Shown: piece by piece, positions 434 through 54,242 of the stretch
Layout of the letters: each line of letters opens with the position of its first letter
Numbering within the stretch: the first letter of the stretch is position 1
Program-made: the position numbers and the translations under genes
DNA from: Bacteroidales bacterium
GTDB taxonomy: Bacteria > Bacteroidota > Bacteroidia > Bacteroidales > P3
Assembly: GCA_017542345.1 (NCBI GenBank)
Contig: JAFXXI010000002.1
Span: 1 to 57,818, forward strand
Length of the DNA stretch: 57,818 nt
Reading direction: 5' to 3'
The notes under the pieces: generated by a model
What the model was told of the DNA's origin: nothing
The model's database searches: none
Seen by the model: the letters and a program-made list of their open reading frames with translations, nothing else

Positions 434-535
434 GGTTCCCCTCCGGTCCCCCTCCGGTCCCGCTCCGGTCCCGCTCCGCTCATCTTGGGTCGAGTTGCGA
501 AGAGGGAGCGGAGGGGGGCCGGAGGGGAGGAGGGG
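434..535 (+). repeat. 11-bp tandem repeat element, copy R1, with inverted arm
   Basis: Four head-to-tail 11-bp units of pattern GGTYCCSCTCC occupy 434-444, 445-455, 456-466 and 467-477. They are followed by a tail (478-500) containing CATCTTGGGTCGAGTTGCGA. A purine-rich arm at 504-528 is the reverse complement of 437-461 at 23 of 25 positions, so the whole element can fold as a long hairpin. Related copies lie at 13793 and 54127, in the same orientation. Confidence 0.85.
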
Positions 536-5978: not shown

Positions 5979-8874
5979 CGAGCGTCAGCTTCTTCACTTT
6001 GCCGAACTTCGAGAGGGCGTCGAAGTCCATCTCGCTCTCCTTGCCGAGAATGAGGTAGGTCTTCTTCTGACCCTTGACGTGCTTCTGCTGGAAGTTGACA
6101 AGGTCGCCCATCGTCATCTTCTGGTAGGCCTGGAAGTTCTGCTTGCGCAGGGGTTCCTTCCAGCCCATCTGCTCGCAGTTGAGGTAGGCGTTGATGATGC
6201 CCATCTTGGTGGTGCGGGCGGTGCGGCTGCCGGCAAGCAGGGCGTCCTTGGCCAGCTTGAAGTTGGCTTCGGCCTGCGGCATGTCATCGAAGAGTTCCTC
6301 GTAGGCGTTGAGGGCGTCCATCAGCTTGTCGTTCTGCGTGATGACGTTGGCAGTGTTGAAGAAGTAGCCGTCCTTGTCGCTGCCGTAGGTGTAGCGGCTG
6401 CTGGCGCTGTAGGCGAGGGAGCGTTTCTCGCGCATCTCCTGGAAGACGATGGCGTTCATCGAGCCACCGAAGTATTCGTTGAAGAGGTTCATGCCCGGCA
6501 CCTGGGCGGTGTTGAAGTGCTCGCCGCGGAAGTACTCGGTGACGTAGGTGTTCTTGGCGTTGTAGTCCACGAAGAGGACGGTGTTCTCGTTGGTGGCCTG
6601 GGGCTGGTACACCTTGTTGGCGGGGATGTCCTTGGTGGGCTTCACGGTGTGGATGCGGTTGACGGCGGCGGTGGCCTCCTTGAGCGACAGCGGGCCGTAG
6701 TAGAGCACGCGGTGCTTGTACTGGAAGAGGCCGTGCAGGGCATCGGTCAGCTGCCTGGCGGTGTAGGCGCGCAGCTCGGCGTCGCTCTCGGTACCCTCTT
6801 TGACGTACTGCTCGCCGTAGATGCCATAGCTATTGAGGGCGCTGAAGGCGGCACGCTGGTTGGTCTTGCGGTCGTTGCGGTTCTTGATGGCGCGTTCTAC
6901 GAGCATCTTCAATGCCTCGTCGTCGGGCTGGCAGCTGGCCATCACTTCCTCCACCAGGGCCATAGCCTTCTCCATATTCTCGGCCAGACCGTTGATGCTG
7001 ACGGTGACGGTGCGTGCGCCGACGCTGATGCCCCACGAGCAGGCCAGCTTGTAGAACTCCTCCTGCAGCTGCTCGGCGGTGTGGTTCGGAGTGTTGAGGT
7101 AGTCCACATAATTGGATGCCAGGTCGATGGTCTTGTCGGCAGTGGAGCCGAACTCGAAGCGGTACTGCAGGTTGAAGGTGCCGTTCTCCACGTTCTTCAC
7201 ATAGAGCACCTCGCTACCATTGGCGGTTTTGCCCTTCTGAAGGTCTTTCTTGAAGTTGACGAAGACGGGCTGGATGGGTTTGGCTTTGGCGGCATCGGCT
7301 TTCACCTGGGTCAGGAAGGCGCTCTCGTTGTCGCGGCTCACGCTGATGGGGGTGATGGCGGGTTTGACGACCTTGGCCACGGGGTCGGGGGTGTCCTGGT
7401 GCTTGAAGACGATGACGTAGTTGTTGTCCTTGCAGATGCGGTTGGCGAAGTCGACGATGTCCTGTTTGGTAATCTTGTCAAGCTCGTTGATTTCGTTGCA
7501 CACCTGGTCCCAGGTCTGGTGCTGCACGAAGGCGTAGGCCATCTGACGTGCGCGGCTGTCGTTGCCCTCGGCATCCTCCATGATTTCGAGCTTCAACTGG
7601 TTGATGCTGGCCTCGATAAGGCTCTCGTCGAATTGACCCGCTTTCACGAGTTCAATCTGTTCGAGCAGCAGGTTGCGCAGCTCGCCGAGACTCTGTCCCT
7701 GGGTGGGACGGCCGGCAAGCACGAAGGCGGCATAGTCGTTGAGGGTGTAGGGGTAGGCATAGGCGCCGAGGCAGAGCTGCTTCTGGTTGAGGTTGAGGTC
7801 GATGAGGCCGCAGCTGCCGTTGTAGAGCACAATCTTCATAGCCCTGGCCAGCAGGGCGTCGCGGCTACCGTTGCCCTCTTCGATGCGGAAGGCGATGGTG
7901 AGGCTGGCGGGGTCCTGGCCGTTCACCAAGCGGATGATGGGGCTGGTGATGGGTGCTTCCTTCACCTTGTGGAATGTGGGTACGGGACCGGGTACCCAGC
8001 TGCCAAAGTACTTGTCAATAATCTTGATGGCCTCGTCGGGGTTGAAGTCGCCGGCCATCGCGATGCACATGTTGTTGGGCACATAGTAGGTGTGATGGAA
8101 GCGGTAGATGTTGGTCATCGAGGGGTTCTTCAGATGCTCGATGGTGCCGAGGGTGGTTTGGGTGCCGTAGGGGTGGTGCGGGAAAAGGCCGCGGAAAAGT
8201 TCCTCGTTCACGCGACGGCTGTCCTGCGCCAAACTGATGTTCTTTTCTTCGTATACGGCTTCCAACTCTGTGTGGAAGAGACGCAGCACCAAGTTGGGGA
8301 AGCGGTCGCCCTCCACCTTGGCCCAGGTCTCCAGCATGTTGGCGGGGATGTTCTCCACGTACATCGTGTAGTCGTTGGAGGTGAAGGCGTTGGTGCCCTC
8401 GCTGCCGATAGCGGTCATCGACTTGCCATACTCGTTGGCGATGGCGATGGTCGACGCCACATAGCTGATGGAGTCGATCTGGTAGTAGATCTCGGCGCGA
8501 CGTTTGTCGTCGGTGGTCTTGCGGTAGACCTCATAGAGGGCCTCAATCTTGTCGAGCTCCACCTTTTCGCGGGTCCAGTCGCTGGTACCCAGCTTCTGGC
8601 TGCCTTTGAACATCATGTGCTCCAGGTAGTGGGCCAGACCGGTGGTCTCGCTGGGGTCGTTTTTTGAACCGGCACGCACGGCTATGTAGGTCTGGATGCG
8701 CGGAGCGTCCTTGTAGACGCTCATGAACACCTTCAGACCGTTCTTCAGCGTGTACTCACGTACACCCAACGGATCGTTGTCATAGGTCTTGTACTCATAC
8801 TTTTGCGCGCTGGCACCCATGCTGAAGAGCAGCAAGACTGCGGCTACGCAGGTCATCAGAAATCTCTTTTTCAT
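5959..8874 (-). CDS. M16 family zinc metallopeptidase, two-lobe form
   Basis: A 971-residue exported peptidase with a signal peptide at residues 1-23 (cut after ASA). The first half carries the inverted zinc motif HYLEH (82-86) and the downstream glutamate ligand region near residues 203-210 (HTELEAVYEE). The second half, from about 520, has the same fold but no HxxEH and should be the structural partner lobe, as in pitrilysin-like proteins. It probably acts in the periplasm or at the outer membrane and cleaves peptides enclosed between the lobes. It is the middle gene of a minus-strand trio: the adhesin-like gene ends 27 bases upstream and the fusion gene overlaps its 3' end. Confidence 0.88.
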   Translation of the reverse strand: MKKRFLMTCVAAVLLLFSMGASAQKYEYKTYDNDPLGVREYTLKNGLKVFMSVYKDAPRIQTYIAVRAGSKNDPSETTGLAHYLEHMMFKGSQKLGTSDWTREKVELDKIEALYEVYRKTTDDKRRAEIYYQIDSISYVASTIAIANEYGKSMTAIGSEGTNAFTSNDYTMYVENIPANMLETWAKVEGDRFPNLVLRLFHTELEAVYEEKNISLAQDSRRVNEELFRGLFPHHPYGTQTTLGTIEHLKNPSMTNIYRFHHTYYVPNNMCIAMAGDFNPDEAIKIIDKYFGSWVPGPVPTFHKVKEAPITSPIIRLVNGQDPASLTIAFRIEEGNGSRDALLARAMKIVLYNGSCGLIDLNLNQKQLCLGAYAYPYTLNDYAAFVLAGRPTQGQSLGELRNLLLEQIELVKAGQFDESLIEASINQLKLEIMEDAEGNDSRARQMAYAFVQHQTWDQVCNEINELDKITKQDIVDFANRICKDNNYVIVFKHQDTPDPVAKVVKPAITPISVSRDNESAFLTQVKADAAKAKPIQPVFVNFKKDLQKGKTANGSEVLYVKNVENGTFNLQYRFEFGSTADKTIDLASNYVDYLNTPNHTAEQLQEEFYKLACSWGISVGARTVTVSINGLAENMEKAMALVEEVMASCQPDDEALKMLVERAIKNRNDRKTNQRAAFSALNSYGIYGEQYVKEGTESDAELRAYTARQLTDALHGLFQYKHRVLYYGPLSLKEATAAVNRIHTVKPTKDIPANKVYQPQATNENTVLFVDYNAKNTYVTEYFRGEHFNTAQVPGMNLFNEYFGGSMNAIVFQEMREKRSLAYSASSRYTYGSDKDGYFFNTANVITQNDKLMDALNAYEELFDDMPQAEANFKLAKDALLAGSRTARTTKMGIINAYLNCEQMGWKEPLRKQNFQAYQKMTMGDLVNFQQKHVKGQKKTYLILGKESEMDFDALSKFGKVKKLTLDEIFGY

Positions 8875-13734: not shown

Positions 13735-13765
13735 CAAATATATAAAAAATTTCTTAACCGCCAAA
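13735..13765 (-). promoter_or_regulatory. Promoter of the T9SS cargo / M16 / fusion operon
   Basis: On the minus strand TTTG (13762-13765), a 19-base spacer and TATATTTG (13735-13742) give a full Bacteroidota promoter. The predicted leader is about 120 bases. Repeat copy R2 begins 28 bases upstream of the -33 element. Confidence 0.75.
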
Positions 13766-13792
13766 AATAATTTCAAACCATGCTTCCGGTCC

Positions 13793-13880
13793 GGTTCCCC
13801 TCCGGTCCCGGTCCGGTCCCCCTCCGCTCCCGCTCCTATCATTTTGGGTCGAATTGCAGAGGGGATGCAGAGGGGGAGGA
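13793..13880 (+). repeat. 11-bp tandem repeat element, copy R2
   Basis: Four 11-bp units: GGTTCCCCTCC (13793-13803), GGTCCCGGTCC (13804-13814), GGTCCCCCTCC (13815-13825) and GCTCCCGCTCC (13826-13836). The conserved tail TATCATTTTGGGTCGAATTG follows, then a purine-rich arm (13858-13880) that only partly complements the units. CTTCCGGTCC just before the first unit is shared with R1. Confidence 0.85.
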
Positions 13881-14083
13881 GATGGGGTCTAGGCAGATGG
13901 GTAAGCGGCTGTCTATTATTATCTTGCATCGGCTCGGGCAACTTATCAACGCGATGGTTTGATAACTTTTTCATTTTCTCGTCGGGCGGTCAGGAAAATA
14001 GTGGTAATTTTACCGTTGGAAAAACGCCCCCGAAGGTGCGTATAAATGTCATATTGTCAATAAAATAAACAGCATATAGAACT

Positions 14084-25307: not shown

Positions 25308-25387
25308 CCGTTGCGCAAAGCGAGAGCAGAGCAAGCCCGCTTGCTATGCCGAGCCAAAGCAACGTGAATGAACGAAGTGAATTAACC
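25306..25387 (+). repeat. 82-bp palindromic intergenic repeat, copy 1
   Basis: An 82-bp element that begins in the hutU stop codon. It contains a small hairpin GCAAGC-CC-GCTTGC inside a larger arch closed by GTTGC ... GCAAC, then a GAATGAACGAAGTGAATTAA tail. Copy 2 lies at 25463-25544 and differs at three positions. Confidence 0.85.
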
Positions 25388-25400
25388 CATAGACTCTCAA

Positions 25401-25464
25401 ACCTTAAGACCCTTAAACCCTTAAACCCTCAAACCCTCAAACCTTTAAACCTTTAAACCCTTAA
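25401..25464 (+). repeat. 8-bp tandem array, ACCCTTAA type
   Basis: Eight consecutive octamers of pattern ACCYTYAA (one ending AAG) fill the space between the two 82-bp repeats; for example ACCCTTAA at 25409 and 25417, ACCCTCAA at 25425 and 25433, and ACCTTTAA at 25441 and 25449. Two more units follow copy 2 (25542-25557), ending 4 bases before the next start codon. Confidence 0.85.
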
Positions 25465-29441: not shown

Positions 29442-29506
29442 ATCTCTACCTCATCTCTACCTTATCTCTACCTTTTCTCTACCCTTTCGCTACCCTAAAG
29501 GTAGAG
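29442..29506 (+). repeat. 11-bp pyrimidine tandem array with inverted end
   Basis: Five 11-bp units: ATCTCTACCTC, ATCTCTACCTT (twice), TTCTCTACCCT and TTCGCTACCCT (29442-29496). The next bases AAAGGTAGAG (29497-29506) are the reverse complement of the unit core, so the array can fold back. The 11-bp period equals that of the R1-R3 elements, but the unit sequence differs. Confidence 0.8.
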
Positions 29507-29594
29507 TTGAGGTGGGGAAGAGGTAAGGAAAAGCTATCGGGGCGGGAGGGCGCGTCGATGGAGGCAGGGGACAGGCGGCCGAGCCGAAATTTTT

Positions 29595-30654: not shown

Positions 30655-30776
30655 GGAGATAAGAAGGTAAGGAGATAAGGAGTTTGCTCCACGAGGTCGC
30701 AGGCCTGCGGAGCAGGCAGAAGGAGATAAGAAGGTAAGGAGATAAGGAGTTTAAGGAGATAAGAAGATAAGGAGTC
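30653..30776 (+). repeat. 8-bp purine tandem array A, AAGGAGAT type
   Basis: Eleven octamers in three runs: a four-unit block (AAGGAGAT AAGAAGGT AAGGAGAT AAGGAGTT in that order) at 30653-30684, the same block repeated at 30720-30751, and three more units at 30753-30776. A 35-base insert (30685-30719) separates the first two blocks and holds a TGCTCC/GGAGCA stem around the palindrome GCAGGCCTGC. The array starts within the tdh stop codon. Confidence 0.9.
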
Positions 30777-30802
30777 TGGAGATAAATAATAAGTAAAACG
30801 AT

Positions 30803-32784: not shown

Positions 32785-33381
32785 ATGAGCAAATATCTGA
32801 TAGTGGGATTGGGCAATGTGGGTGCCGAGTATGAGGGCACACGCCACAACGCGGGCTTCATGGTGGTCGACGCTTTGGCCAAGGAGGCCGAGGCCAAATG
32901 GAGCCTGGAGCGCCACGCCTACCGCACGGAGGTGCGCCACAAAGGACGCGTGCTGGTGCTCGTCAAACCCACCACCTATATGAACCTCAGCGGCAAAGCA
33001 GTGAAATACTGGCTACAAGCCGAGAAGATCGAGCTGCAGAACCTGATGGTCGTGGTCGACGACATAGCGCTCGACCCGGGCATCATCCGCATCAAGAAGC
33101 AGGGCGGCGCCGGCGGCCACAACGGGCTGACGGATATCGAGGCCGCCTTGGGGACGGCGAACTACAACCGCATACGCATGGGGGTGGGCGACCACTTCAG
33201 CCGCGGACGCCAGGTGGATTATGTGCTCGGCCGCATGGAGGGCGAGGATCTGACGAAGATGGAGGAAGCCATCAAGACGGCGTGCGACGCCATCAAGTGT
33301 TTCGCCACGCAAGGCATCGACCGCACGATGAATATGTACAACAGCAAAGGGAATGCGAGGGAGAAGGAGATAAGGAGATAA
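32785..33381 (+). CDS. pth: Peptidyl-tRNA hydrolase
   Basis: A 198-residue cytoplasmic esterase that releases stalled peptides from tRNA. The N terminus YLIVGLGNVGAEYEGTRHNAGF contains catalytic His21. The motif KPTTYMNLSGKAV follows, then VVVDDIALDPG and the glycine-rich GGAGGHNGLTDIE. I start at 32785, which matches the family N terminus. An in-frame ATG at 32716, right after the transcription start, would add 23 residues (MGLFNWIVSVCKQKDCKDAE...). The last codons and the stop come from the beginning of the octamer array (GAGAAGGAGATAAGGAGATAA), so the repeat has reshaped the C terminus. Confidence 0.92.
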   Translation: MSKYLIVGLGNVGAEYEGTRHNAGFMVVDALAKEAEAKWSLERHAYRTEVRHKGRVLVLVKPTTYMNLSGKAVKYWLQAEKIELQNLMVVVDDIALDPGIIRIKKQGGAGGHNGLTDIEAALGTANYNRIRMGVGDHFSRGRQVDYVLGRMEGEDLTKMEEAIKTACDAIKCFATQGIDRTMNMYNSKGNAREKEIRR

Positions 33382-33499
33382 GGAGATAAGAAGGTAAGGA
33401 GATAAGGAGTTAAGGAGATAAGAAGGTAAGGAGATAAGGAGATAAGAAGGTAAGGAGTTAAGGAGATAAGAAGGTAAGGAGATAAGGAGATAAGGAGTT
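33364..33499 (+). repeat. 8-bp purine tandem array B, 17 perfect-length units
   Basis: Seventeen uninterrupted octamers: ten AAGGAGAT, four AAGAAGGT and three AAGGAGTT. They run from inside the pth 3' end to one base before the coaX ATG. The four-unit order seen in array A recurs at units 3-6. Every unit contains AAGG, and 13 contain AAGGAG, the Shine-Dalgarno core. Confidence 0.95.
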
Positions 33500-53985: not shown

Positions 53986-54010
53986 ATGCTTTAGTATTTT
54001 TTTTTCATTG

Positions 54011-54042
54011 CAAAACTATGCAAAAAGAATGACTTTTGCAAA
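54011..54042 (-). promoter_or_regulatory. Promoter of the AT-rich two-gene operon
   Basis: On the minus strand TTTG (54039-54042), a 20-base spacer and TAGTTTTG (54011-54018) followed by CA. It lies 26 bases before the start codon at 53985. Confidence 0.7.
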
Positions 54043-54126
54043 CTTTTTTTCACTCAAAACACAAACGGTTAAAAATCAGCATCTTACAACTAGATTTACA
54101 AAACGCTGTTTTTTAGGGTCCTGTCC

Positions 54127-54200
54127 GGTTCCCCTCCGGTCCCCCTCCGGTCCCGCTCCGCTCCCCCTCCTATCATCGTCGGTCGAGATGCGAAGAAAGG
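54127..54200 (+). repeat. 11-bp tandem repeat element, copy R3
   Basis: Four 11-bp units: GGTTCCCCTCC (54127), GGTCCCCCTCC (54138), GGTCCCGCTCC (54149) and GCTCCCCCTCC (54160-54170). The conserved tail is TATCATCGTCGGTCGAGATG. The first three units are identical to those of R1. It sits at the edge of the AT-rich insert, 85 bases upstream of the -33 element. Confidence 0.85.
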
Positions 54201-54203
54201 GCG

Positions 54204-54242
54204 AAGAGGGCCCGGCTCGGATGGGGAGCGGGGCCCTCTTTT
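54204..54242. terminator. Stem-loop between ribBA and the AT-rich operon
   Basis: AAGAGGGCCC (54204-54213) pairs with GGGCCCTCTT (54231-54240) around a 17-base GC-rich loop. A short T-run follows on the plus strand; on the minus strand it could end the ribBA transcript, whose stop lies 21 bases away. Confidence 0.55.

Follow-up and report, generated by a model that had tools for sequence, protein, structure and literature searches.

The window, by which we mean the whole 57,818-nucleotide stretch that was analysed, is contig 10 of a genome of 1.26 Mb and 69.67% completeness (the home genome). Judged by a single aminotransferase, its nearest named records are MAGs of the Bacteroidales, many with titles that point to ruminant guts, and the host is probably a gut bacterium of ruminant origin. 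Three repeats in the window, R1, R2 and R3, are real and are members of a dispersed family, designated family A, whose unit is CTCCGGTCCCC. On the plus strand, R1 comprises an array at 425-477, made up of a leading TTCCGGTCC and four 11-bp units that were read directly at 434-477 in the order GGTTCCCCTCC-GGTCCCCCTCC-GGTCCCGCTCC-GGTCCCGCTCC, then a joint or tail, GCTCATCTTGGGTCGAGTTGCGAAG (478-502), and a G-rich inverted arm (503-537) that pairs with the array. R2, also on the plus strand, has a four-unit core at 13793-13836, which becomes a five-unit array (13782-13836) under a relaxed definition that includes the leading GCTTCCGGTCC, and continues into a tail and a degenerate G-rich arm (13837-13885). 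R3 follows the same plan on the same strand, with an array at 54119-54170 consisting of a leading TCCTGTCC and four units (read directly at 54127-54170), and with a tail and degenerate right arm at 54171-54213. To the left of each repeat lies a minus-strand gene with a -7-like promoter box on its strand, TATCTTTG at 191-198 for R1 and TATATTTG at 13735-13742 for R2, both read from the sequence, and TAGTTTTG at 54011-54018 for R3, within a stretch common to two other copies. The boxes are so named after the Bacteroidetes promoter consensus.

Much of what a preliminary description had reported for these repeats is borne out within the window. The conserved tail is present as TSGGTCGARWTGCRRAG at 486, 13845 and 54179, the only three matches in the window, against a shuffle mean of 0.28. 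The arrays lie 269 (R1), 188 (R2) and 142 (R3) bases upstream of the gene starts at 165, 13605 and 53985, as in the reported range of 140-270 bases, and the translated N-termini of the three minus-strand genes do look, by eye, like signal peptides. The inverted arm described for R1 is strong (fold z of -4.1 on the plus and -5.0 on the minus strand), and R2 (-0.9) and R3 (+0.6) are without one of this kind.

Some 170-190 bp to the left of the array, promoter included, are common to R3 (window positions 54000-54170) and two other copies, L183 and L186, at 77-88% identity. The gene beside R3 is a paralogue of the one beside L183, with roughly 30% identity across 177 residues, and the gene of the third copy matches neither; at these three places it is as if promoter and array had spread together. 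The neighbour of R1 belongs to a family that is presumably DUF1573-like, and among the relatives with such a neighbour that were read by eye, only one (L110) has an 11-nt array there. Arrays of 7- or 8-nt units also occur in the window, at 33364-33497, 25384-25464, 30720-30785 and 561-604, with units that include AAGGAGAT (17 times) and AACCCTTA (10 times); the last of these arrays sits directly to the right of R1.

With R1 as query, family A was found at 40 distinct places in the home genome, on both strands. This number is a floor: 40 of 54 first-look candidates were scored, second-arm matches of the same hairpins having been set aside, and a 41st, two-armed copy at L338 (5229-5348) lies outside the scored set. 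Under the relaxed definition, the arrays hold three units in 3 copies, four in 19, five in 16, six in 1 and seven in 1. The statement that each copy has exactly four units is therefore correct for R1 and R3, depends on the definition for R2 (four or five), and does not carry over to the genome, where the number ranges from 3 to 7. The common orientation likewise stands for the window, with all three repeats on the plus strand, and fails genome-wide; we ascribe it to small numbers, since copies in divergent gaps face gene starts at both ends and those in tandem gaps are split 8 to 5. Most copies have a common unit order, in which GGTTCCCCTCC comes first, GGTCCC(C/G)CTCC in the middle and, often, GCTCCC(C/G)CTCC last, which marks them as copies of one another and not independent births. 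Median pairwise identity is 0.932 for the left array and 0.523 for the right arm, a disparity that counts against a single burst of equal age. The best lag of the right arm is 11 in 31 of the 40 copies, and an old 11-nt array, since eroded, would explain it. Either constraint or ongoing copying must keep the left array uniform among copies; given a C-rich array that is about 93% alike despite erosion of the opposite arm, copying of the array, or binding to it, are the likely causes. In three relatives, too, the array is more alike than the opposite arm (0.91 versus 0.26-0.50), in a set biased by having been found with the array pattern. A CTGANAATCAG-like motif is seen about 10-70 bp to the left of arrays in several species (L003-L005, L007, L013, L014 and L023 in the home genome; L152, L155 and L164 in relatives), followed in several of the home copies by a TTACAAAACGCTG-like sequence.

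Genes were called with a home-made codon-usage gene finder, for which the called coding fraction of the family A loci is 0.91. All 40 copies fall between called genes, 27 in divergent gaps, 13 in tandem gaps and none in convergent gaps, so that every copy faces at least one gene start. Little weight attaches to the absence of convergent copies (p=0.24 under one length weighting and 0.043 under another, against backgrounds drawn from the loci around the copies). A preference for divergent gaps (p=0.005, and far smaller by the other weighting) was set aside, both backgrounds again coming from loci around the copies; nor is it claimed as general, because arrays are mostly tandem in two relatives (12 of 17 arrays in G103 and 13 of 21 in G024; in a third, G071, 8 of 16 arrays lie in divergent gaps and 6 in tandem ones). 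The distribution does not suit a terminator-like 3'-end hairpin either, with 27/40 copies divergent and 0/40 convergent, although the 13/40 copies in tandem gaps do follow a gene. For 41 of the 67 facing genes, a TAnnTTTG box stands between array and gene, as opposed to 5.6 in mononucleotide shuffles, which places those copies upstream of promoters.

The preliminary description offered two main options, a regulatory element for surface-protein genes and a small mobile repeat. The first is not supported by the neighbours. Signal-peptide-like N-termini, scored by a home-made rule, occur in 29 of 67 genes that face an element and in 60 of 168 others (Fisher p=0.30), and some neighbours are clearly cytoplasmic. 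When 20 neighbours were scanned against NCBIfam, matches above the curated cut-off were obtained for RuvB, NAD synthase, MurF, KamB, a T9SS plug protein and a C-terminal peptidase, and strong matches below it for HolB and a lipid kinase, with no function common to the 20. On these two grounds of neighbour composition, an operator of surface genes was rejected. It had been stated beforehand that a variable unit number, or copies in both orientations near cytoplasmic genes, would speak against a regulatory role; the first is seen in the 3-7 units of the 40 copies, and the second beside RuvB, NAD synthase, MurF and KamB. The small mobile repeat is the better supported of the two options, with mobility itself being putative.

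The home genome holds at least three unit families. Families B and C, along with the extra family A copy in L338, were found in ten further stretches of it, 196 kb in all, which hold none of the 40 known family A places and for that reason are no fair sample for family A and cannot decide the matter of divergent gaps. Family B (unit ACCGTAGAACG) occurs at 11 loci, 10 of which were read; these copies are about 140 bp long, with ends alike and flanks unlike, and no target-site duplication was seen by eye at their ends. In 10/10 loci read, A units stand at one end of the B element and enter the B units in unbroken 11-nt register, and the opposite end, by eye, resembles the right arm of family A. 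Family B thus looks like an A element with a replaced interior. Family C (unit CTCTACCTCAT) has three loci in the home genome, one of which gives the window a further type of 11-bp array, at 29442-29494 on the plus strand (unit ATCTCTACCTT, 4.8 copies), with an inverted arm, placed by folding, at approximately 29498-29528. Beside one family B element (L334, about 8150-8210) is an array of CTCGGAGTCAT, whose reverse complement resembles the unit of two relatives, G024 and G118.

Where inverted arms are seen, they are made of the arrays themselves, and some fold extremely well, as in the near-perfect palindromes L329 (-104 kcal/mol), L290 (-82) and L087 (-77). A fold z of -3 or below is reached by 7 of 17 arrays at conserved-gene loci, 10 of 40 family A copies and 3 of 11 period-7 arrays, compared with 4 of 40 control regions. 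As most copies are without a strong fold, the hairpin was rejected as the defining feature; the inverted arm is frequent and non-defining.

None of 60 other genomes, 36 from the same genus and 24 from the same order, contains the exact family A pattern, which likewise has no match in wider genome and viral contig collections, in which near records may be left out. Under a looser pattern, 19 of 99 genomes from the genus proved to have arrays with different units, the highest count being 171 overlapping matches in G103; the reversed pattern, as a control, gave 7 matches in 3 genomes. The looser pattern demanded a T at a position unlike the home unit, so that its zero in the home genome (G000) is uninformative. 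The 54 arrays taken from G103, G071 and G024 have units of their own and lie in tandem, divergent and, in four cases, convergent gaps. Intergenic regions were then scanned for tandem periods of 5 to 24 (at least 25/30 matches), with dinucleotide shuffles as control. Among 372 regions from 80 aminotransferase, 29 ruvB and 29 holB loci, a sample that is not random in that ruvB and holB were picked because the home genome has an element there, period 11 was found in 17, period 7 in 11, period 9 in 2, period 10 in 1 and periods 12 and 13 in none, and the shuffles gave 0. A set of 156 regions, which adds murF and a control gene, recounts ruvB and holB and so overlaps the former in part, contained period 11 in 21, period 22 in 3, period 7 in 2, period 8 in 1 and no others. 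Beyond the genus, arrays were seen in 0 of 60 gaps in a small sample of 29 genomes from other genera of the order (28 of them from other families); arrays L110 and L136, which come from loci at only 82% and 66% aminotransferase identity, nonetheless leave room for other genera. A more distant relative (L138, 2209-2323) has a gap with palindromic 22-nt units, TTCGGTAGGTATATACCAAA, of period 22 and not 11.

The arrays of relatives have unrelated units, among them TTCTTCAGTAG, CACCGTACATG, AATCGAAGAAC, TCGTTGTCCAG and GTACAGTACTT. For 23 arrays from 15 genomes, taking only the best-scoring array of each region and calling units alike at 10/11 or more positions in any rotation or strand, 5 of 11 same-genome pairs are alike as opposed to 0 of 242 different-genome pairs; at a threshold of 9/11 the figures are 5/11 and 3/242. 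The pairs are not independent, three of the five alike pairs coming from one genome (G073), and the six same-genome pairs that are unlike imply that one genome can hold several unit families. At one locus (L279), a second array is visible whose unit is the one seen elsewhere in that genome. That 11 is common to unrelated units in relatives keeps alive the earlier remark on 11 bp per helical turn. A G-quadruplex was considered for the G runs that family A has every 11 nt on one strand and was rejected as a general property, such runs being missing from CTCCGAGTCAA, TTCTTCAGTAG and GTACAGTACTT in relatives.

Positions are in some cases occupied across genomes. For instance, the gap between the divergent lipid-kinase and HolB genes contains an array and, by eye, a complementary arm in the home genome and in G019, G008, G023 and G071, and none in G012. 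The units of the home genome, G019 and G071 all differ, and G008 and G023, sister genomes about 86% alike at this gap, share one unit and an inner hairpin, with one unit more in one arm of G023 (by eye). In a first comparison, 13 of 48 ruvB/holB gaps and 2 of 114 other promoter gaps were occupied, 94 of the 114 being from aminotransferase loci. The difference, which persisted when a minimum gap length of 200, 250 or 300 bp was imposed (p=0.0008 to 0.002), gave the impression that places were strongly conserved. With a control gene chosen because the home genome has no element there, the occupied gaps in relatives amount to 6/25 for the control, 4/25 for ruvB, 9/23 for holB and 4/22 for murF, and across these four searched genes to 23/95 versus 4/49 for other promoter gaps in the same loci. 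Special conservation of the home positions, as in a conserved regulon, was accordingly rejected, the control being occupied like murF and ruvB. A clean empty site was not obtained from these relatives, which are too distant (closest HolB identities of 76-79%). Two loci at ruvB, L273 (G036) and L283 (G080), are 98.6% identical over 2.35 kb and rearranged beside the 11-nt array; the two genomes are classed as different species despite this identity.

With a probability of about 0.5, we read R1-R3 as copies of a non-autonomous, MITE/foldback-like intergenic repeat with 11-bp minisatellite arms, situated upstream of promoters. One arm would be the array of 11-bp units and the other, where it survives, its inverted complement. 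Copies would multiply within a genome through transposition or some other form of copying, after which slippage or template switching may reshape the array, always by whole 11-nt steps, such that the unit drifts fast and the period is inherited; copies would survive mainly in non-coding space beside promoters, on whose transcription they may have an influence. What the evidence points to is a spread of genome-specific units within each genome, an inherited period and whole-unit change; the enzyme and the insertion reaction are putative. The class is assigned from the dispersed intergenic copies, from the shared ends and unrelated flanks of family B, and from the closest described element, BrickBuilt, being a Bacteroidales MITE. 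As in a MITE, the elements are short, non-coding, dispersed and intergenic (40 A places, all between genes, and 11 B loci) and carry an internal spacerless minisatellite of 11-nt units, 3-7 per array. No target-site duplication and, for family A, no defined terminal inverted repeat was found, and a search for Y1 transposases returned none that shares the element ends; as neither a transposase, a target duplication nor a clean empty site was found, mobility is inferred and the probability is set at one half.

The most serious rival, possible though doubtful, is that of phased binding arrays. Here a protein that differs or co-evolves from genome to genome would bind the 11-bp units along a single helix face, upstream of promoters, and would thereby control many genes; the inverted arm would be dispensable. 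Binding would agree with the facing of a gene start by all 40 home copies (27 divergent, 0 convergent), with the promoter box between array and gene, and with conservation of the array strand alone, a tendency also present in the biased arrays of three relatives. Yet little can be made of the missing convergent copies, 4 of the 54 arrays from three relatives do lie in convergent gaps, a single genome holds at least three unit families, the 20 scanned neighbours have no common function, and the occupied positions are not specially conserved (control gene, 6/25). An improbable alternative is that each genome of this genus has a machine of its own that writes or rewrites 11-nt promoter arrays, with the machine setting the length and a template of the genome setting the sequence; conceivable candidates include a recombinase that measures a helical turn and a reverse transcriptase carrying a short internal template. 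Such templated writing, if true, would account for identical units at unrelated loci within a genome, different units in relatives and the constant 11. One ancestral type of 11-nt array, whose sequence has turned over and whose period has been inherited, is simpler and likelier.

Three further readings are less probable still. Array and inverted arm might be transcribed into a long hairpin that presents a feature at each turn and is bound by an RNA-binding protein or nuclease; an A-form helix has a pitch of 11 bp, which fits the period, and elements such as L329, L290 and L087 fold extremely well. This is very unlikely, as many copies fold no better than controls, copies in divergent gaps lie upstream of the promoter box where one is found and would not be transcribed with the adjacent gene, and Rfam 15 matched only three tRNAs in the window at gathering score. 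Neutral minisatellites, born and lost by slippage anywhere in non-coding DNA with neither mobility nor function, were already disfavoured and are slightly less credible again: unit-number differences are visible and periods 7 and 8 occur too, but the same unit recurs at unrelated loci of one genome and not across genomes (5/11 versus 0/242), the peak at 11 is too sharp, and unit order is common to most of 40 dispersed copies. Least probable of all are REP/REPIN-like elements moved by a RAYT (Y1) transposase. REP elements are tied to Y1 transposases, Y1 genes occur in 8 of 12 relatives searched, and the repeats are intergenic, partly palindromic and present in dozens of copies. Against this, there are 0 Y1 (PF01797) matches in the home genome (at 69.67% completeness, a miss is possible) and none in 4 of the 12 relatives, G118, G009, G008 and G019 (81-95% complete) carry 11-nt arrays with no detected Y1, and an 11-nt array lies near one of four Y1 loci inspected (L404).

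Taken together, these data suggest a family of small DNA elements, mobile or regulatory, that changes quickly. Most intergenic repeats of bacteria are known family by family; here relatives have in common a period of 11 nt while the unit is private to each genome. A shared period with a private unit makes the origin of the arrays testable, the options being templated writing, copying of an element, or slippage accompanied by concerted turnover. Should adjoining promoters be affected by the arrays, these would also provide a fast route to the rewiring of expression in uncultured gut Bacteroidales.

Foldback transposons of the Drosophila FB type have inverted arms of short tandem repeats, and the elements described here resemble them in this construction, while being far shorter, bacterial and without known transposase or target duplication. 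No description of 11-nt arrays with genome-specific units was found in the open-licence PMC literature, as far as its accessible parts extend; those that surfaced concern REP/REPIN elements, TAACTGA heptamers and BrickBuilt, and in the available main text of a survey of perfect inverted repeats from 2026 (PMC13155455) no word starts with 'bacteroid'. REPs, according to the parts available, are palindromes of 20-40 bp (PMC3116915, PMC3733652), and the title of one of these papers names a GTAG/CGTC tag of short palindromes (PMC3733652). Our elements are like them in being dispersed, extragenic, partly palindromic and of high copy number (PMC3116915, PMC3733652), and unlike them in consisting of 11-bp units set in arrays and in that neither the home genome nor 4/12 relatives yielded a Y1 match. 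TAACTGA heptamers, described in the available part of the source as direct repeats in Beggiatoaceae, Cyanobacteria and some Bacteroidetes (PMC4679880), also form short direct-repeat arrays, mostly upstream of genes with no shared function (PMC4679880). They have period 7 and one fixed sequence across distant groups, whereas our arrays, with period 11, other and genome-differing units and occasional folding back, do not belong to that type. The nearest counterpart is BrickBuilt, a minisatellite-bearing MITE of Porphyromonas gingivalis (PMC4596501), and thus likewise of the Bacteroidales. In the accessible portion of that account, it has spacerless tandem units within a dispersed, always intergenic element, a variable unit number, a conserved leader-like end and a possible effect on neighbouring promoters (PMC4596501), all of which recur here. 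It differs in a unit of 23 nt, as against 11 nt, and in a leader and tail with 12-bp TIRs like those of IS5-family ISPg elements, none of which were found here (PMC4596501); in our elements, by contrast with BrickBuilt as there described, the unit differs between genomes and some arrays stand opposite an inverted complement of themselves.
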